A stretch of 64,000 nucleotides of DNA, taken from positions 28,143 through 92,142 of the forward strand of contig LUYE01000048.1 of NCBI GenBank assembly GCA_001602645.1. The letters are read 5' to 3'. Shown piece by piece: positions 18,847 through 36,031 of this stretch. The notes under the pieces are model-generated. The model saw only the letters and a program-made list of their open reading frames with translations, made no database searches and was not told where the DNA came from. Positions within the stretch are counted from its first letter, which is position 1; every line of letters begins with the position of its first letter. The translations under genes were made by a program, and so were the position numbers. The stretch is from Methanosarcinales archaeon Methan_01 (GTDB lineage: Archaea > Halobacteriota > Methanosarcinia > Methanotrichales > Methanotrichaceae).

Positions 18847-21800
18847 CTATTTTGTGCTCTCTTCCACGATGGCGATCTCATCCTCGGTGAGGTTGTACAG
18901 TTCGTAGACCAAGGCATCTATCTGCTTGTCCGTATAATCGATCTGATTTTGGATGCGCGTTTTTTCATGCGGCGTTCCGACTTCCTGGAGCTGCTTATGC
19001 AGGTCGAGCATCGTCTCCACGAGGCTCACCATCTTGTCGTGGCGGGCGACGTCCTGGGGGTCGGAGAAGTCGATGGTCCGTACTGGAAGCTGAGATAAAA
19101 ATTGCCTATTGGCAGACAGCCACCCACCACGGAACGGAGCGCTCACGAACGGGAAATACCACCTGAATAACTTGGAATTAAGTAAACCAAGAATATATCG
19201 GAAACCCTGGTTTTGATATTTTGATTTTAATATTATACCTCCGACGTCAACATTGTCCAAGAAATGAGACCCATCTGCATCATATGCGGCGTACAGACTT
19301 TCAACTAAACGTGGCACACAAATTTTCTCTATTGACTGTTTAGACATATTTTTCAAGTAGATATATCCATACCAACCCGAACCTTTTGCTTTCCCCTTTT
19401 CTCGGCCCTCGAGTAAGTTCTTATTTTTTAATAGATATGCCGTGGTTTTCGGATAATTTTCAAGTAGTTTATTAAAATCGATCAATTTAACAGTATGGCA
19501 GTCAACCATATATGGGAATAGTATGTATTGGCGTGATGGAAGCTGTTTATATCGATTAACATCGGTTCCACTAACCAACGGAAATAAAAGACCCTTTTCA
19601 AATTCCCACTCTTCATTGAGTGCTTTTGATTTCAATTTCAGGCAATCAGATTTTTCTTCTATTAAGTCCAAAATAAATACTTTATCTGCACTTGTTTGTA
19701 AACCTACAAATATATCTGCTATATCACCCAATTTCGAGTCTAAGCTATATAATTTTTCAAATATTTTGGCGTCTTTTCCTACCACAAAATTCCATTCTCT
19801 GTCAGATATATTATCAGCAGAAATTGTACCAATTATGGATCTTCCACTGGTGCGCCATTCGACTAAATCGTCTACTTTCACAAACTCAAAATTGTCACTA
19901 TGGGATTTACATAAAAAGAGGAGGCAAGTATAAGTAGTAGCTCCAGGAAACACTTGCTCGTGATTGAAATGGACAATTTTACTGACGTGATTGCTTACTG
20001 ATAACACACTTCGCAATGGTTGTCCATATTGGGAGTTGAAGAATTTGTTTGGCAGGATGAAGCCTAAACGGCCGCTTTCGTTCAGGAGGCCCAGCCCCTT
20101 CTCGACGAAGACGACGTAAATATCGTAATTCCCTTTCTCGGCGGCCTGGTAATGCTCTTTGTAAAATTCCACCTCTACAGGAGCCCATTCCTTCATCATT
20201 TGAATCCTAATATACGGCGGATTTCCAATTACCGCATCAAAACCGCCTTTGGCGAAGACATCGTTAAATTCATCCTCCCACATAAAAGGATTTATCCTCT
20301 CCAGCTCTTCCTGGGAGAGACCAGGCCTATCTTCAAGGATATCCCAACCGATGAGGGAATTGCCACATTTTATATTATTCCCTAGATCTGGCAAAGCCCT
20401 CTCGTCGGAATACATGTTGAGATCGGTGATGGTGGCCTTATTCTCTCCTTCCAAGACCTTGAGGAGCAAAGAGAGCTTTGTGACCTCCACGGCCTGAGTG
20501 TCGATATCCACGCCATAGATGTTGTTGAGGAGGATCCTCTTCCTCTCGGCGGTCTTCAGATGCCATTCTCCCGCCCTCTCCTCGATGGGGAGGGTCGCCA
20601 CCGAAGCCCTCTCCCAGATCTTCTTCGATCGGAACCTGGCGTTCTTCCCCGGCTTCTCGATCGGAGACGGGAGGAGATCCTGCACCCCTTTTGATGTCGA
20701 CTTCTCTCCAGCATCCAAGAGAGGGACGAGACGGGCCTTGTACCAGTCGAGGTGCCAATCCAAGAGGTGCTGATAGGCCACTATCAGAAACGACCCCGAA
20801 CCGCAGGCGGGATCGAGGATGCGAAGGTCAGAGGCCTCCTTGGGCGTCTTCCCCTCCAAAAGCTTGCCGACGGTGTTTTTAACGATATAATCTACAATAT
20901 ATGGTGGAGTATAATAAACGCCTCCGGCCTTCCTCACCTCAGGCTTCTCCACCACGCTCACTTTGTGGCTCTCGTCCAGCTGGATGACCTTCCCCAGGAA
21001 CTGCTCGTAAACGTGACCAAGAATATCGGCAGGGATCTCGGAGAAGACGTAAGGGCTGTCGGGATAGTATAAGCTTTGAATTATATTCTTAAGAACATTG
21101 TCCTCGATCTTTATCGACGGGGTGATGGCGTCGAAGTTGTTCCTCTCCTCCTCTGGATGGAAGTGAAACAGCCCCGAATTGTACCTCTTATCGGCCTCTT
21201 CGAAGAGCTCAAACAGCCTCTTATATACATCATCCCCATCAAGAAGCCCCTTCAACCGCTCGCTGTCCTCAATAGACCGATCCTCACAGATCCTGAGAAA
21301 TAGAATCCTGTCGATCGTCATCTGGACGGCATAGTTAAGGCTCTTCTGAGAGATCTCTGGATTCATCTTAGTGATGCTCGCCGCCAGAGCATTTCGCCAA
21401 TCAGAGATGTCCTCCAATAGGGCATCATCGACCTTGTCTCCCTTGGGCGGAGGGATGGAGCCCAAGGAGCCCTTCTGGACTGATTCTTTGGAGAACAACG
21501 AGGCGATCTCGTCCCATCGCTTTTCATATTCATAATATTTTATTAATAATAATCTAGACTTTTGTGGCTTATCAAATTTGAACGGTTTGATCCTGCAATC
21601 GTAAACGGCAAACTCCTCAAAGTCGGTTACAATGGCAAGCGGCAGGGTAGAAGAATATGCATAACGCTTTATCTGAAACGCTGGGGTTATTCCTCCTTCA
21701 ATATTCACCGAAGGTTTTTTGGCGTCCAGAAAGAACTTCCTCTCCCTGTCAAGCCAGAAGCTGTAATCGGGCCTCTGGGTCTCCCCCTCTGACCTCAAGG

Positions 21801-21990
21801 TATCTTCAAACCTGACCTCTCTCTGATCTGGGGGCTTATTGCTCTTATTTCGGACATCCCAGCCTAGAGCTTCAAAGAAGGGATTTATAAATTCAATTTT
21901 AATTTCTTCTTCTTTATAACTAGATTTATATTTATCAATGACCAGATCGAATCTTTCAACCAACTCAAGGATCTTCTCCGGAACGGCCAC
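18847..21990 (-). CDS. Type IIG restriction-modification enzyme (fused nuclease-N6-adenine methyltransferase-specificity)
   Basis: N-terminal PDYSFWLDRERKFFLDAKKP (PD-ExK-like), GVYYTPPYIVDYIV, DPACGSGSFL, GNPPYIRIQ; C-terminal coiled coil and TRD-like region. Confidence 0.9.
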   Translation of the reverse strand: MAVPEKILELVERFDLVIDKYKSSYKEEEIKIEFINPFFEALGWDVRNKSNKPPDQREVRFEDTLRSEGETQRPDYSFWLDRERKFFLDAKKPSVNIEGGITPAFQIKRYAYSSTLPLAIVTDFEEFAVYDCRIKPFKFDKPQKSRLLLIKYYEYEKRWDEIASLFSKESVQKGSLGSIPPPKGDKVDDALLEDISDWRNALAASITKMNPEISQKSLNYAVQMTIDRILFLRICEDRSIEDSERLKGLLDGDDVYKRLFELFEEADKRYNSGLFHFHPEEERNNFDAITPSIKIEDNVLKNIIQSLYYPDSPYVFSEIPADILGHVYEQFLGKVIQLDESHKVSVVEKPEVRKAGGVYYTPPYIVDYIVKNTVGKLLEGKTPKEASDLRILDPACGSGSFLIVAYQHLLDWHLDWYKARLVPLLDAGEKSTSKGVQDLLPSPIEKPGKNARFRSKKIWERASVATLPIEERAGEWHLKTAERKRILLNNIYGVDIDTQAVEVTKLSLLLKVLEGENKATITDLNMYSDERALPDLGNNIKCGNSLIGWDILEDRPGLSQEELERINPFMWEDEFNDVFAKGGFDAVIGNPPYIRIQMMKEWAPVEVEFYKEHYQAAEKGNYDIYVVFVEKGLGLLNESGRLGFILPNKFFNSQYGQPLRSVLSVSNHVSKIVHFNHEQVFPGATTYTCLLFLCKSHSDNFEFVKVDDLVEWRTSGRSIIGTISADNISDREWNFVVGKDAKIFEKLYSLDSKLGDIADIFVGLQTSADKVFILDLIEEKSDCLKLKSKALNEEWEFEKGLLFPLVSGTDVNRYKQLPSRQYILFPYMVDCHTVKLIDFNKLLENYPKTTAYLLKNKNLLEGREKGKAKGSGWYGYIYLKNMSKQSIEKICVPRLVESLYAAYDADGSHFLDNVDVGGIILKSKYQNQGFRYILGLLNSKLFRWYFPFVSAPFRGGWLSANRQFLSQLPVRTIDFSDPQDVARHDKMVSLVETMLDLHKQLQEVGTPHEKTRIQNQIDYTDKQIDALVYELYNLTEDEIAIVEESTK

Positions 21991-28044: not shown

Positions 28045-28680
28045 TCACCAGTACTCCTCCAGCCTGGAGGCGACATCTCCGATCCGCCGGTCGACCTCCC
28101 GGGATCCGATGGCCCCGACGGGGATGGCCTCCAGGATCGCCCCGACGTACTTCCTCTTCGCCTCCATCAGGCCGGCGACGTCGGCTTCGGCTATATCGGC
28201 GAGAAGGGCCTCCGCCGCCTCCCTCGATCGGTCGAGGGAGGCCTCCAGCTCCTTCATCAACATCTCGGGATCCACGACTTCGGAGGGACCCTCCCGGATC
28301 GAGTGGACCTCCCCCGCAAGGTCGATGACCGCCTCGATGAGCTGGCCGAAGGCCGAGGCGTCGGCGTCGCACCTGCCGCCGTGGGTCTCGGCGTAGCCGC
28401 AACCTTGGCAGCGGCACCCGCCCGCGTTCTGGACGCAGAAGGGGCAGGCCTCAGGCCTGAGAGGCAGCGAGTCGAGGAGAAACATCGCCGTCGCCATCGC
28501 GAATCGGGCAGCCTCCCGGGCGGTCCGGACCTTTGATAGCCCCGCCTCGAGCCGGTCCAACCTCATGAGGAAGAGGAGGCTTCGTGCCTCCACCGCTCCC
28601 CTCGCCTCCTCCAGGGACCGGGGTTCGATCTTCGCCACAGCCCCCGCCTTGTCCTCAGGGCTCGCCATAGCTGACCCCAT
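28045..28680 (-). CDS. Hypothetical protein with Cys cluster and helical C-terminal half
   Basis: CPFCVQNAGGCRCQGCGYAETHGGRC cluster in a 211-aa ORF. Confidence 0.65.
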   Translation of the reverse strand: MGSAMASPEDKAGAVAKIEPRSLEEARGAVEARSLLFLMRLDRLEAGLSKVRTAREAARFAMATAMFLLDSLPLRPEACPFCVQNAGGCRCQGCGYAETHGGRCDADASAFGQLIEAVIDLAGEVHSIREGPSEVVDPEMLMKELEASLDRSREAAEALLADIAEADVAGLMEAKRKYVGAILEAIPVGAIGSREVDRRIGDVASRLEEYW

Positions 28681-28799
28681 CGAACCTCTGGGTCATAAGC
28701 CCTTTCTCCCTCGATCCGGCCATCTCCACCCTCCGGGCGAAATCAGCAAACGGGATATATGACGGCTGCAGATCTCCCGGAGGAGGAAGGAGGAAAGAG

Positions 28800-31700
28800 T
28801 TGAGAATACAGATCCTGCGGGGCCCCGCCCTCTCGGGGAAGACGGAACGGCTGATGGCGGCGATGGCGGAGGCCCACCGGGAGGACCCCACCTCCTACAC
28901 CTTCATCGCCCCAAGCCCGGAGGAGGCGGCTAGCTTCGCCGAGAGGTTCTCGCGGGCCGTCAAGGGTCCCGTCCCCGCCGGAAACTTCGTCACCCTCTCG
29001 AAGGTCGCCGAAGACCTCCATCGGCTCGCCCACCCCGGCGAGGTGCTCCTCAGCAGGGGCGTGGTGAACCTCCTCGCCGCCGACGCCTTCTCCGACCTCC
29101 CCGACGAGGAGCTGGGGGTCTTCGCGCCCCTCCGGGCCTCGCCAGCCTTCGCCCGCTCCGCCGCCGAGGCGGCCTGGGACCTCGCCATCAGGGGCGATGC
29201 CGAGATGGCCGACCTCCTCGCCTCCGAGGAGGCGCTCAATCTCGCGAGGGCGGTCCGGAGGTGTGTCGAACGGGTCCGGGGGCGGGGGGTCTTCGACCTG
29301 GCCGACGCCTGCCGCGGATTCGATCCGGAAGGCGCGAGGGGGTACCTCCGGGAGAGGTACGGGACCCGCCTCTTCGCCGACGGCCTCGCCGACCTCCCCG
29401 GGGCGGAGATGGGGTTTCTATCCCGTCTTATGCCCTTATTCGAGGATGCGACGATCACCCTCGACCCCGCCCTCTGGAGCCGAGGAGGGCTGGAGGAGTT
29501 CCTCGCCCTTCTGGCCGAACGGGGGTTCGAGGAGATCGAGTGCCACCCCCGGGACGAGCCGCTATCGAAGGCCCTCGACTCCTTCCTCCTGGACGGCCCA
29601 CCTCTAACGGCCTCCGACCTCCGGGGCCTCGTCTCCGTCGCGAGCCATTCGGACCCGGAGGCTGAGACCCTCGCCATCTGCCGGGAGGCGAAGAGGCTGA
29701 TCTCCGAAGGGCTCCGCCCCGAGGATATATCGATCGTCGTCGCCGAGCCCTCCACCCGGGGGCGCGAGTTCCTCCGGGCCCTATCGGCCGGAGGCGTCCC
29801 GGCGAGGCTCCTCGCCGGGGAGAACCTCCTGGAGACGAAGATAGTACAGCTGCTCCTCCTGCCCTTCAGGGCGGCGGCCGCGGGGTACCCGCCCGAGATG
29901 ATCCTCGCCCTCCTCGACGGCTGCCTCCCCGCCTCGCCCCGGGACCTGGAGGCCGTCGCCTCCGCCGCCGGCCTCCTCCTCCTGCCGGCTGGCGACCTCT
30001 CGGCGAAGAGGCGAGGTTGGATGGAGGCCCTGGCGGAGCACCAGTCCGCCCTCCAGGAGAAGGGCCGCCTCCTCGCCGCCGACGAGACGGTTCTGGATGG
30101 CGAGGTGGCGGCGGCGGCCCGGCGGGCCGAGCTCTGCGCCACTATTATGATCCGATCCGAGGAGCTCTTCGACCGCCTAGCTCGGATGGAGGCGGCGATC
30201 GATGGGTCAGGCCTCGAGGGGATCGCCTCCGAACTCCGGCGGATGATCGAGCTTCTGGAGCCGGGGCTCGCCGACCTGGAGGAGGAGAGGCTCGCCCTCG
30301 ATAGGTTTGAGGAGGCGCTGACGAGGACCGCCCTGGCGCTCTCGGCCCTCGGCCGGGGCGAGCTCCCCCTCGACCGGCTCCTCTCCATCCTGGCGAATGC
30401 CCTATCGGACCCGGCCTGGTCCGGCTCTGCCCAACCCGGGGCCGTCGAGATCCTCTCCCCAGCCCTCTCCTCGAGGAGGTACCGACGGGTGAAGTTCGTG
30501 GCGGGGTTCAACGATGGCCACTTCCCCAGCCGTTCGGCGAATCCCCTCTACCAGCTGAGCGACTTCTCCGCCGGCAAGGGGGAGAAGAACCTCCACCAGA
30601 GGAGCGACAAGGTGGAGCGGTCTCGGCTCCGGAAGGCCATCGCCGCCTCCTCCCGGGTCGTCGTCTCCTATCCGAGGGCGTCCCGGGAGGGAGCGCCCCT
30701 CGTCCCTTCCCTCTGGCTTTTCAGGATGGCGGGGCTCGGCCCCCTGGAGGGGGAGGCCGGACCGGGGCCGAAGGACCCCCCGGCGATCCTGAGCCGGAGG
30801 GATCTCCGGGTGGAGTACGCCCTAGCCCTCGCCCGGGGCGAGAGGCTGGAGGTCCCGAAAGAACTCCTCCAGGAGGTGGAGCCCCTCCGCCTCCGGGCTG
30901 AAATGGACCGGTTCCGCTGGAGGATCGACGACCCCGAGATATGTCGGGTCCTCTTCGGCAGAAGCTTCAGCTACTCCAAGCTCCGGGAGTATCGGAGCTG
31001 CCCCTTCCGGTTCTTTCTCATTCGGGGCCTGGGGATCGAGGAGCCGACCGCCGAGAGGTTCGAGCTCACCCCCCTGGAGAGGGGAACCGCCTACCACGCC
31101 ATCCTCCGGGCCGTCGGCGGAGGCGATGCCGGGGTAGAGGAGGTCGTCCGTGAGGAGGCGGAGAGGACGGCAGCGAGGTTCCTCGCCGACCAGAAGGTCA
31201 GGACGGTGGAGGCGGTCCGCCGGAGGATCGTCGGGGCCGTCGCCTCCGAGGTCCTCGGCTATCTGAGATTCGAGGCGGAGGATCCCGTCAGGGCCTCCGT
31301 CGGCCGCCGCCGGATGACGGAGGTCCCCTTCAGCCTCCAGCTCCGGAGGATGGGAGACCTCCTACCCCGCTCCTCCTCCGAGTACGGGGACCTGACCTTC
31401 CGGGGGAGGATCGACCGGATCGACCTGGACGCCCCAGGCAAAAAGAGGAGGATCGACGTCGTCCTCTCCGACTACAAATCCTCCGACTCCGGCGCCGAGT
31501 GGGAGCAGCTCCAGCTCTACTCCCTCGCCCTCCTCGCCCTCGGCCTCCCCGACGTCCCTGCGGAGCCGGGATCGATGAGGGCGATCTTCAGGATCGTCCG
31601 ACGGCCGGGGATCTCCCGAATCCTGGAGGTCTCTGCCGACGAGGGGAGGATGGTCCGGCAGAGGTCGAAGCCAAACCCCACCTTCGACGAGGTGGATGGA

Positions 31701-31859
31701 GAGCTCCTGGAGGCTCTGGATGGGATCTTCAAGGGGAGCGGGGAGTTCCGACGGGGCGCCGACCAGGAGGGATCGAAGAAGGGGTGCTGGGGATGCCCCT
31801 TCGAGGCGGAGCCCTGCGCCATCGCCGCCTGGCTGGAGGAGGAGGAGGGGTCTCGGTGA
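28800..31859 (+). CDS. addB: AddB-like nuclease/inactive-helicase subunit
   Basis: N-terminal Walker A GPALSGKTE; C-terminal GRIDRID...VVLSDYKSS...QLQLYSLAL nuclease; Cys set RSCPF...GCWGCPFEAEPC. TTG start after GGAGGAAGGAGG. Confidence 0.85.
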   Translation: MRIQILRGPALSGKTERLMAAMAEAHREDPTSYTFIAPSPEEAASFAERFSRAVKGPVPAGNFVTLSKVAEDLHRLAHPGEVLLSRGVVNLLAADAFSDLPDEELGVFAPLRASPAFARSAAEAAWDLAIRGDAEMADLLASEEALNLARAVRRCVERVRGRGVFDLADACRGFDPEGARGYLRERYGTRLFADGLADLPGAEMGFLSRLMPLFEDATITLDPALWSRGGLEEFLALLAERGFEEIECHPRDEPLSKALDSFLLDGPPLTASDLRGLVSVASHSDPEAETLAICREAKRLISEGLRPEDISIVVAEPSTRGREFLRALSAGGVPARLLAGENLLETKIVQLLLLPFRAAAAGYPPEMILALLDGCLPASPRDLEAVASAAGLLLLPAGDLSAKRRGWMEALAEHQSALQEKGRLLAADETVLDGEVAAAARRAELCATIMIRSEELFDRLARMEAAIDGSGLEGIASELRRMIELLEPGLADLEEERLALDRFEEALTRTALALSALGRGELPLDRLLSILANALSDPAWSGSAQPGAVEILSPALSSRRYRRVKFVAGFNDGHFPSRSANPLYQLSDFSAGKGEKNLHQRSDKVERSRLRKAIAASSRVVVSYPRASREGAPLVPSLWLFRMAGLGPLEGEAGPGPKDPPAILSRRDLRVEYALALARGERLEVPKELLQEVEPLRLRAEMDRFRWRIDDPEICRVLFGRSFSYSKLREYRSCPFRFFLIRGLGIEEPTAERFELTPLERGTAYHAILRAVGGGDAGVEEVVREEAERTAARFLADQKVRTVEAVRRRIVGAVASEVLGYLRFEAEDPVRASVGRRRMTEVPFSLQLRRMGDLLPRSSSEYGDLTFRGRIDRIDLDAPGKKRRIDVVLSDYKSSDSGAEWEQLQLYSLALLALGLPDVPAEPGSMRAIFRIVRRPGISRILEVSADEGRMVRQRSKPNPTFDEVDGELLEALDGIFKGSGEFRRGADQEGSKKGCWGCPFEAEPCAIAAWLEEEEGSR

Positions 31860-34800
31860 AGGGGGACCTATTCATATCGGCGAGCGCCGGGACGGGGAAG
31901 ACCTACACCATCTCCAAGAGGTACGTCGAGATCTTCGAGGAGGCCCTCCAGGCAGGGGAGGCGATCTCCGTCGGAGAGGTGGCGGCGATAACCTTCACCA
32001 GGAAGGCAGCGGCGGAGATGAAGAGGAGGATCGTCGAGATGATCGCCGACAAGGCCGAAGCCGACGAACGGTGGACGGGCCTTCTTTCCTCCATCCCCTT
32101 CGCCTGGATCGGGACGATCGACTCCTTCGCCGGCCGGATCCTGGCGGAGAACGGGGCCCTCGCCGGGGTTGATCCCGGCCTCCGGGTCGAGGCCCCCTCC
32201 GGCTCTTCGATCCTCGTCCGGAGGGCGGCCCTCCGGGCGGTCTGGGAGAACGAGGCCCTTGCGGAGCCGATCCTGAGGGCCGTGGGCGTCGACGACCTCG
32301 TCAAGGCCCTATGTCTCGGGGCGGAGGGGAGGGCGAAGGTCATCGCCGCAAGGCCGGCGGAGGCCGTCGAGGGAGACCTCCCCCTCCACCAGGATGCGAG
32401 CCTCGCAGCGGAGATCGCCGAGGCGAACCGCGCCTTCCTCGAGCTCTTCCGCCGCTTCGACGCAGTCCGCCGCCGGGAGATGGAGAGGCTCGGCCGGACG
32501 GACTTTCTCGGGGTCCTCCTCTCCCTCCGGGATCTCCTCCTGGAGAGACCCGCCCTGAGGGCCCGGCTCAGAAGCCAGTTCCGATACATCATCGTCGACG
32601 AGTTCCAGGACACCGACCACCTTCAGAAGGAGATCGTCGACCTCCTCCGAGGAGAAAAGACGCGGATCGTCTACGTCGGCGACGGGAAGCAGTCGATATA
32701 CAGGTTCCGGGGGGCAGAGGTGGAGGTCTTCGCCAAGGCGAGGCGGGAGGTGGAGGCGAGGTCCGGGACCGTCCGGGAGCTTGCGACGAACTACCGGTCC
32801 CATCCGGGGGTCCTCGACTTCTGTAACCGCTTCTTCGCTGGGATCTTCGATGGAGCCGACGGCTCCAGCGTCCGGGGATACTGGCCGGTGGCGCCCCTGC
32901 CGGTGGTGGGGGAGACCGGCGACCTCCCTCGGGCGAAGATCCTCTTCCACCCCGAGGACGAGGGGAAGGCCGCCGCCCTCTTCATAAGGAAGATGGTGGG
33001 AAGGGAGTTCGACTTTCTGATGAGGGAGGCGGACGGCTCCGGCGGCGTGAACCTCATCCCGGAGAGGCGAAAGGTCAGATACAAAGACTTCGCCATCCTC
33101 CTGAGAAAGCTCCGGGGCGGGACGGGGGACCGGTATGCAAGTGCCCTGAGGGAGATGGGGATCCCCTGCTACGTCGTCGGTGAGGCGGGGTTCTTCGACC
33201 TCCCCGAGATCAAAGGCATCTTATCCATCCTCAAAGTCCTGGCAGATCCGGCCGACGACCTCTCCCTGACGACGGCCCTCCTCTCCCCAGCCGTCGGCCT
33301 CGACCTCCAGGACCTGGCCCGGCTTAAGGCGAGGGCGAAGGCCATCGCCGAGGAGGGCGACCCCCGCCCCGGCGGGAGCCGGAGAGCCCCACTCTTCGAC
33401 TCCCTCGGCGGGATCGAGGAGGGGGACCTCTCCCCCGAGAAGGCGAGGCGGGTCGGGCGGCTGAGGGAGGTCCTGGACCATTTCGCAGATCGTAAAGACC
33501 TCCTGACCCCCTCCGCCATCCTGGAGGAGGCGGCAGAGCTCCTCGATTACGAGGCCCACCTCGCCCTCGCCGACCCCCTGAGGAGGAGGACCGCAAACCT
33601 CCGGAAGCTGATGGAGGCCTCGAAGGCCCTGGACGAGGCGGGGCTCTCCTTGAGGGAGGTGATCGGAAGGCTCGAAGGCCCCGGGTTCGAGGACGTGGAG
33701 CCAGCCTCCGTCGAGAGCGAGGAGACGGACGCGGTGAAGGTGATGACCGTCCACAAGGCGAAGGGGCTCGAGTTTCCGATCGTCATCGTCGCTGAGACCT
33801 CCTGGAGCGATCGGGCGACACCGCCCCCCTTCCTCCTGAGGAGGGGCGAAGGAGGGGGGAGAGAGCTCGTCATCTCCCTCCTCCCGGAAGAGAAGTCCGG
33901 GGAGGGGACATTTCTCTCCGAGATGGCGGAGGAGGAGAGGAGGCGGGAGGCCGAAGAGGAGGAGAGGACCCTCTACGTCGCCGCCACCAGGGCGAGGGAC
34001 CTCTTGGCCATCACCCTATCCGCCCCCAAGAGGCGGGGGCCGAGGCCCTGGCGGGACCTCCTCGCTCCCATCATCGCCGGCGAGGATGAAAGCCCGGAGG
34101 CCGCCCCCGACTTCTTGGGGGTCCTCGAGGTCGTCAGGGCGGCGGATCTGGAGCCTGGGGAGGACGGCCCCGCCCTCCGGGGCGATGGGTCGGCCATCGT
34201 CCCAGACCTCACCCTCATCGATCCGATCGAGGTCGAGGACGGGAGCCTCCGGATCTCTCCGACCCGCCTCGTCGATCCGGAGGAGCACCAGCCATTCCTG
34301 CCGGGGCTGGCCTCTGCTCGCAAGCCTGAGGCGGCAGAGCTGGAGCTGGAGCCCGAGGCGGCGGCCCTCGCTGATGAGGAGGAGCCCCTGGAGCCGAAGG
34401 ACCTGGGGAGGCTCGCCCACCAGATTCTGGAGGGGCTCGGCGTCGGCGGCCAGACCCTCGACGACCTCGGCTCGGCAGAGCGGCCCCGCCGCCCCCCTCA
34501 CCTCCAGGCCGGGATCTTCGGCGACGACGAGCTCCGGGAGGTCTGGACCGTCCTCGACCGGCTGAAGGGCCACCGCCTCGTGAGGGAGATCGAGGCCGCC
34601 GGAAAGACGAGGACGGAGTACGAGATTCTCCGCCCCTTCGGGCGGCACACCCTCGTCGGGAGGGTCGATAAGCTGGTGAAGACGAGAGAGGGGTGGCATA
34701 TCGTCGACTTCAAGTTCGCCGACTCCTCTGCCCACGCTCCCGCCTACGAGTTTCAGATGAGGTTCTACCTCTACCTCGCCCGGGAGATATTCCGGCCGAT

Positions 34801-34951
34801 GGTGGGGGCGCGGCTCTTCTACCTCAAGGACGGGGGCGTCCGGGATCTCCGGCTCGAAGACGGGGAGGTGGAGGGGTTTGAGGAGGAGCTCCGGAGGAGG
34901 ATCGAGAGGCTTGGGGACGCCTCTGGCACAGAACTTAATTATCCGGACTGA
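31856..34951 (+). CDS. addA: AddA-like UvrD/RecB-family helicase-nuclease
   Basis: SASAGTGKTYTI, AAITFTRKAAAEM, VDEFQDTD, VGDGKQSIYRFRGAEV, MTVHKAKGLEFPIVI, VAATRARDLL; C-terminal GRVDKLV...IVDFKF nuclease. GTGA overlap with addB. Confidence 0.92.
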   Translation: MKGDLFISASAGTGKTYTISKRYVEIFEEALQAGEAISVGEVAAITFTRKAAAEMKRRIVEMIADKAEADERWTGLLSSIPFAWIGTIDSFAGRILAENGALAGVDPGLRVEAPSGSSILVRRAALRAVWENEALAEPILRAVGVDDLVKALCLGAEGRAKVIAARPAEAVEGDLPLHQDASLAAEIAEANRAFLELFRRFDAVRRREMERLGRTDFLGVLLSLRDLLLERPALRARLRSQFRYIIVDEFQDTDHLQKEIVDLLRGEKTRIVYVGDGKQSIYRFRGAEVEVFAKARREVEARSGTVRELATNYRSHPGVLDFCNRFFAGIFDGADGSSVRGYWPVAPLPVVGETGDLPRAKILFHPEDEGKAAALFIRKMVGREFDFLMREADGSGGVNLIPERRKVRYKDFAILLRKLRGGTGDRYASALREMGIPCYVVGEAGFFDLPEIKGILSILKVLADPADDLSLTTALLSPAVGLDLQDLARLKARAKAIAEEGDPRPGGSRRAPLFDSLGGIEEGDLSPEKARRVGRLREVLDHFADRKDLLTPSAILEEAAELLDYEAHLALADPLRRRTANLRKLMEASKALDEAGLSLREVIGRLEGPGFEDVEPASVESEETDAVKVMTVHKAKGLEFPIVIVAETSWSDRATPPPFLLRRGEGGGRELVISLLPEEKSGEGTFLSEMAEEERRREAEEEERTLYVAATRARDLLAITLSAPKRRGPRPWRDLLAPIIAGEDESPEAAPDFLGVLEVVRAADLEPGEDGPALRGDGSAIVPDLTLIDPIEVEDGSLRISPTRLVDPEEHQPFLPGLASARKPEAAELELEPEAAALADEEEPLEPKDLGRLAHQILEGLGVGGQTLDDLGSAERPRRPPHLQAGIFGDDELREVWTVLDRLKGHRLVREIEAAGKTRTEYEILRPFGRHTLVGRVDKLVKTREGWHIVDFKFADSSAHAPAYEFQMRFYLYLAREIFRPMVGARLFYLKDGGVRDLRLEDGEVEGFEEELRRRIERLGDASGTELNYPD

Positions 34952-34979
34952 TATAGGGAAGGCGACGAGGTCGGCAGAG

Positions 34980-35894
34980 GTGGCGGTTCCAGATTTCCAG
35001 AGCTTGATGCTCCCCCTCTTGAAGGTCTTGGGAGATGGTGACGAGCACAGCCTTCACGAGGTGATAGAGACTCTGGCAGATCAGTTTGGGCTGATCGAAG
35101 AGGAGAGGCGCGAACTCCTCCCCAGCGGAAGGCAGGCGAAGCTAGCCAACCGGGTGGGGTGGGCGAGGACGTACATGAAGAAGGCTGGCCTCTTGGAGAG
35201 CACGGGAAGGGGCAAGTTCCGGATTAACGATCGGGGTCTTGCAGTCTTGAGATCCGACCCGGCTGAGATCAACGTCAAGTTTCTTGAGCAGTTTCCAGAG
35301 TTTCAGGAATTTCATCGTGGGACCTCCAAAGATGGCCAGAGCGATCCGAACGACGATGCCACCGAGAAGACGAGAACCCCTGAGGAGGTCCTGGAGGCAG
35401 GCTACCAGAACCTGAGGAGGGATCTGGCCCAGGAGCTTCTCGATCGGATAATGGGATGCTCTCCCGAGTTCTTCGAGAGGCTCGTGGTAGACCTGCTGGT
35501 GGCGATGGGATACGGCGGCTCCCGAAGAGATGCGGGCGAGGCTGTCGGCAGGAGCGGCGACGGCGGGATCGACGGGATCATCAAGGAGGATAAGCTCGGC
35601 CTCGACGCCGTCTACATCCAGGCCAAGAGGTGGGAGGGGACGGTGGGCAGGCCGGCGGTCCAGGCCTTCGCCGGAAGCCTGATGGGGAACCGGGCGGGGA
35701 AGGGGGTCTTCATTACGACGTCTCAGTTCACGAAGGAGGCGAACGATTATGTCAAAGGGATCCAGCAGCCTAAGATAGTCCTGATCGATGGGGAGCAGCT
35801 CGCCCAGTTCATGATCGACCATGACATCGGCGTCGCCGACGTCGCCACCTACAGGGTGAAGAGGGTCGACCTGGACTACTTTGGGGAGGAGTGA
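34980..35894 (+). CDS. mrr: Mrr-family restriction endonuclease
   Basis: N-terminal winged-helix Mrr_N-like region; catalytic GRSGDGGIDGIIKEDKLGLDAVYIQAKRW...FITTSQFTKEA. Start codon uncertain. Confidence 0.88.
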   Translation: MAVPDFQSLMLPLLKVLGDGDEHSLHEVIETLADQFGLIEEERRELLPSGRQAKLANRVGWARTYMKKAGLLESTGRGKFRINDRGLAVLRSDPAEINVKFLEQFPEFQEFHRGTSKDGQSDPNDDATEKTRTPEEVLEAGYQNLRRDLAQELLDRIMGCSPEFFERLVVDLLVAMGYGGSRRDAGEAVGRSGDGGIDGIIKEDKLGLDAVYIQAKRWEGTVGRPAVQAFAGSLMGNRAGKGVFITTSQFTKEANDYVKGIQQPKIVLIDGEQLAQFMIDHDIGVADVATYRVKRVDLDYFGEE

Positions 35895-35954
35895 TTCGAG
35901 GCTTGCCGCCTTGAGATGGCGCGATCTCGCTTGAGCATCCGAACCGACGGTCTT

Positions 35955-35994
35955 GGCTTGGAGAGGACTCCCGGATGATCCGGGGGTCCAAGCC
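35955..35994. terminator. Stem-loop between convergent genes
   Basis: GGCTTGGA...CCCGGATgATCCGGG...TCCAAGCC inverted repeat in the mrr/36032 convergent gap. Confidence 0.5.
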
Positions 35995-36031
35995 GCCGAA
36001 TAGAGCTCGCGTTTAGATCTCTTCTTTCCCC

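Follow-up and report, generated by a model that had tools for sequence, protein, structure and literature searches.

Previous studies of the B. subtilis enzyme described Chi recognition and an ionic latch (E129-R629) in AddAB (PMC4824097). This is the bacterial complex that the addB and addA genes analyzed here resemble most closely. Like the B. subtilis type, they encode a two-gene helicase-nuclease with a nuclease domain in each subunit, and the AddB subunit shares the four-cysteine set and the Walker A motif of bacterial AddB, which is also its best fold match. Unlike that type, the pair has an archaeal host and the last AddB cysteine follows a spacing of x6; the position of latch residue R629 falls on a phenylalanine here in a weak and uncertain alignment. 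Archaea process DNA ends with another motor-nuclease pair, HerA-NurA (PMC12977600), whose proteins are unrelated to AddAB although both systems carry out end processing, and NurA is encoded in the same genome. AddAB-like pairs (PD-(D/E)XK plus UvrD) with the same gene order and domain types are found on haloarchaeal plasmids, which differ in that they form a separate AddA branch and often stand beside BREX genes. The third gene of the locus resembles the type IV restriction enzyme Mrr in its Mrr_N and Mrr_cat domains and its GIDG...QAK residues, and no difference was apparent when the two were compared by sequence.

Results

The locus and its host

The window (the whole stretch of 64,000 nucleotides analyzed) belongs to a genome of 2.6 Mb in 85 contigs from the Methanotrichaceae (Methanocrinis/Methanothrix harundinacea group). 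A contig scan with the alignment as query found the same AddB in Candidatus Methanocrinis natronophilus, Methanothrix harundinacea and other Methanotrichaceae, and these named relatives confirm the archaeal host proposed by the sequence-only reading. The open reading frames, the starts and the GTGA overlap also lie where that reading had placed them. The features are as follows:

28048..28680, minus strand: divergent Cys-rich gene adjoining addB, no Pfam match
28744..28760, plus strand: CAGCAAACGGGATATAT, a BRE/TATA-like candidate promoter of addB, some 40 nt upstream of the TTG start
28800..31859, plus strand: addB-like gene, 1019 aa, start TTG, stop TGA
30999..31001, plus strand: AddB C734 (CPFRFF), the first presumed Fe-S cysteine, conserved in every sequence of alignments A1 and A3
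31785..31817, plus strand: AddB C996-x2-C999-x6-C1006, the other three presumed Fe-S cysteines
31856..31859, plus strand: GTGA overlap of the addA start and the addB stop, read in the sequence
31856..34951, plus strand: addA-like gene, 1031 aa, start GTG at 31856, stop TGA at 34951
34935..34942, plus strand: putative mrr TATA box TTAATTAT, within the last codons of addA
34980..35894, plus strand: mrr, 304 aa, best start GTG, 28 nt past addA

The mrr start is most likely GTG 34980 because the relatives begin at the same residues. A near-identical sequence of the CAGCAAACGGGATATAT type precedes addB in six Methanocrinis genomes. By tblastn synteny, the divergent Cys-rich gene adjoins addB in all seven AddB-bearing genomes of the genus (truncated in two of them by the end of a contig or a gap), and in G009 it adjoins mrr instead. 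Elsewhere in the window, at 18847-21990 on the minus strand, there is a type IIG restriction-methyltransferase gene with a G+C content of 0.456, compared with 0.61 for the window.

Identity of the three proteins

AddB consists of a helicase-like N-terminal part with a Walker A motif (GPALSGKT at residue 8) and a C-terminal PD-(D/E)XK nuclease (Pfam PDDEXK_1 at 722-1002, 4.6e-26) with the motifs GRIDRID...DYK. C996 and C999 are invariant and the third cysteine is kept in G017 with shifted spacing; the four cysteines of the nuclease presumably form an Fe-S cluster site. Sequence similarity to bacterial AddB is weak, and TIGR02773 (Gram-positive AddB, NCBIfam) gives 30.8 bits, far below its cut-off of 903.7. 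In Foldseek, the best five PDB matches of the AddB model, a model of low confidence (pLDDT 57.6), were all B. subtilis AddB (E 1.5e-19 to 7e-18). Domain, Walker A motif, cysteines and fold matches thus agree with the earlier naming of this protein as AddB, and the Walker A motif, both nucleases and the cysteines are intact across the genus.

AddA has UvrD N- and C-domains followed by a C-terminal PD-(D/E)XK nuclease (Pfam), its helicase motifs and nuclease residues are in place (VGRVDKL...IVDFKFA), and it matches AddA of B. subtilis by sequence at 7.4e-45, while TIGR02785 (Gram-positive AddA, NCBIfam) scores 227.8 bits, far below its cut-off of 707.65. Pfam and motifs therefore bear out its assignment as an UvrD-type SF1 helicase with a nuclease. 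Within the genus the branching of AddA matches that of neighbouring genes, as far as tested; outside it the tree, with long branches and few bacterial sequences, did not resolve the donor of addBA. In G011 the addA gene appears as two overlapping frames split in the linker before the nuclease (L013 4489-8582), through a sequencing error or a real frameshift. Near inserted genes, the 3' ends of addA, of speB and of the divergent gene occur in duplicate (L014 3428-3760, L017 18349-18471, L013 16386-16574), as if cassettes had been added at gene ends.

Mrr likewise proved to be what it had been called, with Mrr_N (6.4e-33) and Mrr_cat (2.7e-37) in Pfam and its nuclease residues present, and PADLOC matched it to mREase_IV at 5.4e-95.

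Linkage of addBA and mrr

Among the genomes of the genus that hold both on unbroken sequence, mrr follows addA on the same strand in four of four (G000, the genome of the window, G011, G012, G008). It abuts addA only in G000 and G011, the latter with the same order and tight spacing, and in G008 and G012 an SDR gene stands between addA and mrr, the pair and mrr lying within about 2.5 kb. In G009 mrr occupies the corresponding site, with addBA absent. AddB was found without an Mrr match in G007 and G014, both fragmented assemblies, and G017 has AddB and Mrr on separate contigs. An apparent distance of 650 kb between addBA and mrr in G013 was rejected; the gene positions there are not usable as evidence because both pieces are bounded by the N runs that join them. 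The addB-addA-mrr synteny expected from the window therefore exists in some relatives, but it is not a constant linkage of three genes, as mrr occurs without addBA in G009 and elsewhere and the SDR gene intervenes in G008 and G012.

Mrr is also frequent in genomes of the family without AddB. A full-length Mrr is present in 6 of 8 family genomes with AddB versus 13 of 42 without it; Fisher's test, with no correction for how related or complete the genomes are, gives p 0.04. A search of 21 loci outside the genus that hold AddAB-type genes or their remnants turned up no Mrr relative.

The leader of mrr

The putative TATA box TTAATTAT is the sole A/T run of at least 7 bases in 28700-36000. The sequence GCACAGMACTTAATTATCYGGACTGADATAGG (IUPAC) is common to the region 5' of mrr in G000, G011, G012, G013 and G009, and G049, of another genus, has a diverged copy of the leader. 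Only in G000 and G011 is this leader the end of addA; a conserved TATA-like leader precedes mrr also where addA is not adjacent, which probably argues for a separate mrr promoter. On these sequence comparisons, the simplest reading is that the leader is an mrr promoter predating the present end of addA. Because the leader forms the last addA codons here, the close abutment of the two genes resembles the scar of a deletion. In G008 the decayed remnant of an addA 3' end, most similar to the addA of G008 itself, immediately precedes mrr, and the G008 Mrr branches apart from the remaining Mrr sequences of the genus, with modest support. This decayed end, together with the same-strand position of mrr 3' of addA in four of four genomes, indicates that the order may predate a recent deletion.

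A dedicated module of Mrr and AddAB, as first suggested from the sequence, is not supported, given the persistence of mrr where addBA is missing (G009, many family genomes), the TATA-like leader of mrr in genomes whose addA is not adjacent, and the 21 loci without an Mrr relative.

Distribution of AddAB and NurA

AddB is present in 7 of the 9 genomes of the genus and was not found in the other two, G009 and G010. Across 238 genomes of the class, AddB outside the genus amounts to one full-length copy in G017 (another genus) and a fragment in G048. Partial genes lie in other genera, addA in G003 (L076 5124-6191) and addA with addB in G048 (L077 1320-2830), suggesting decayed copies. In the phylum, AddAB-like genes of other types occur more widely than AddB of the window's type: 29 of 394 phylum genomes had a match at 1e-20 to an AddB query from haloarchaea. 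The tblastn comparison of P0001 with the plasmid collection gave no match because the haloarchaeal plasmid AddB is so diverged. Archaeal addAB genes were reportedly described by Cromie in 2009. AddAB-like pairs are not exotic in archaea, although the initial view described AddAB as a bacterial complex.

That view had also assumed that archaea use HerA-NurA instead of AddAB, a premise that fails here: NurA occurs in 9 of 9 genomes of the genus. A replacement of NurA by AddAB was rejected, and since NurA is also present, AddAB is an addition. In genus g8 few genomes gave a match to the NurA model, through either absence or divergence of the gene. A viral source of AddAB was rejected as well: with the patterns used, viral contigs contained no AddB relative, and phage AddA matches were partial. 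L063, filed under Candidatus Nanosynbacter, shares its AddB match with Methanosaeta L064, and its assignment is probably a binning error.

Evolutionary rates

Single NG86 estimates of dN/dS between G000 and four relatives were 0.37-0.55 for addB, 0.29-0.52 for addA and 0.10-0.13 for mrr. Among the neighbours, marC gave 0.17-0.28, DUF25544 0.18-0.29, eIF5A 0.05-0.15 and glcD 0.27-0.31, while two reach into the range of addA, speB at 0.28-0.32 and a further gene at 0.34. Thus addBA evolves faster than most neighbours, which could also reflect relaxed constraint; the divergent Cys-rich gene, without known defence function, reaches values as high as those of addBA (0.33-0.47). Between G012 and G013 the synonymous difference is lower in addBA (0.09-0.10) than in mrr (0.25) and part of speB (0.20), which may be due to exchange between species or to metagenome binning.

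Neighbours of other AddAB-like pairs

In a small inspected sample, which is not a survey, the AddAB pair of G017 (L018, 599-4165 and 4140-10456) adjoins Shango-type SngB (2.7e-160) and SngC (5e-240), and PD-(D/E)XK plus UvrD pairs stand beside BREX genes (PglX, PglZ, BrxA, BrxB or BrxL) on haloarchaeal plasmids L073, L088, L089, L093, L094, L095, L096 and L098. No BREX gene occurs in the stretch read of L092, L097 and L099. The pairs of haloarchaea and G017 are branches separate from the Methanocrinis one.

Discussion

On balance, we consider it probable that the locus holds an accessory, partly defensive, end-degrading AddAB beside an independent Mrr. By analogy with bacterial AddAB, addB and addA would form a two-subunit helicase-nuclease that binds a DNA end, translocates by the AddA motor and uses its two nuclease domains to cut both strands. 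We infer that it serves one archaeal genus as an accessory besides NurA, most likely degrading linear DNA (broken, replicating or invading) and not performing an essential repair step. The mrr gene would be a type IV restriction gene in its own right that probably has a promoter to itself, and the simplest cause of its abutting addA in G000 and one sister would be deletion of what lay between. If Mrr cuts modified DNA and AddAB chews the ends, such cooperation would be incidental. What the sequences show directly is the identity of the genes, their motifs, the variation in gene order and the conserved leader of mrr, while the activities, the function of the promoters, the direction of the deletion and the accessory role are inferences.

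This account has to be weighed against a single defence operon in which AddAB degrades, from its ends, the modified foreign DNA that Mrr has cut. The 28-nt spacing, the same order in G011, the proximity of pair and mrr in G012 and G008, the decayed addA remnant that precedes mrr in G008 and the type IIG enzyme elsewhere in the window would all suit such an operon, and a shared defence role of AddAB and Mrr is possible. However, G009 keeps mrr in place in the absence of addBA, Mrr is common in the family without AddB, the mrr leader is conserved independently of addA, the 21 other AddAB-type loci have no Mrr relative nearby, and mrr evolves at a different rate from addBA; we therefore regard the operon as quite improbable. 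AddAB could instead be mainly a recombination-repair enzyme of bacterial origin that supplies the archaeal recombinase with 3' ends and may use a Chi-like signal; mrr would then be unrelated. Intact motors, nucleases, Walker A motif and cysteines throughout the genus, together with an AddA branching that agrees with that of neighbouring genes as far as tested, are consistent with this. We nevertheless find it rather unlikely, given NurA in every genome of the genus, AddB missing from G009 and G010, the rarity of this AddB type in the class, and the defence-type neighbours of the relatives in G017 and haloarchaea.

Returning to an accessory AddAB beside an independent Mrr, a defensive role of AddAB is possible, and it is hinted at more by the BREX and Shango neighbours of its relatives than by Mrr. 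As a reading that is less likely than not, archaeal AddAB-like pairs might be mobile accessories for DNA degradation that repeatedly associate with different front-line defences, such as BREX in haloarchaea, Shango in a Methanothrix and perhaps Mrr and restriction-modification here. The operon-based story is corrected by these comparisons, as the tight spacing coincides with an mrr leader that relatives keep without addA. Archaeal AddAB-like enzymes emerge as possible defence accessories that are open to haloarchaeal genetics.
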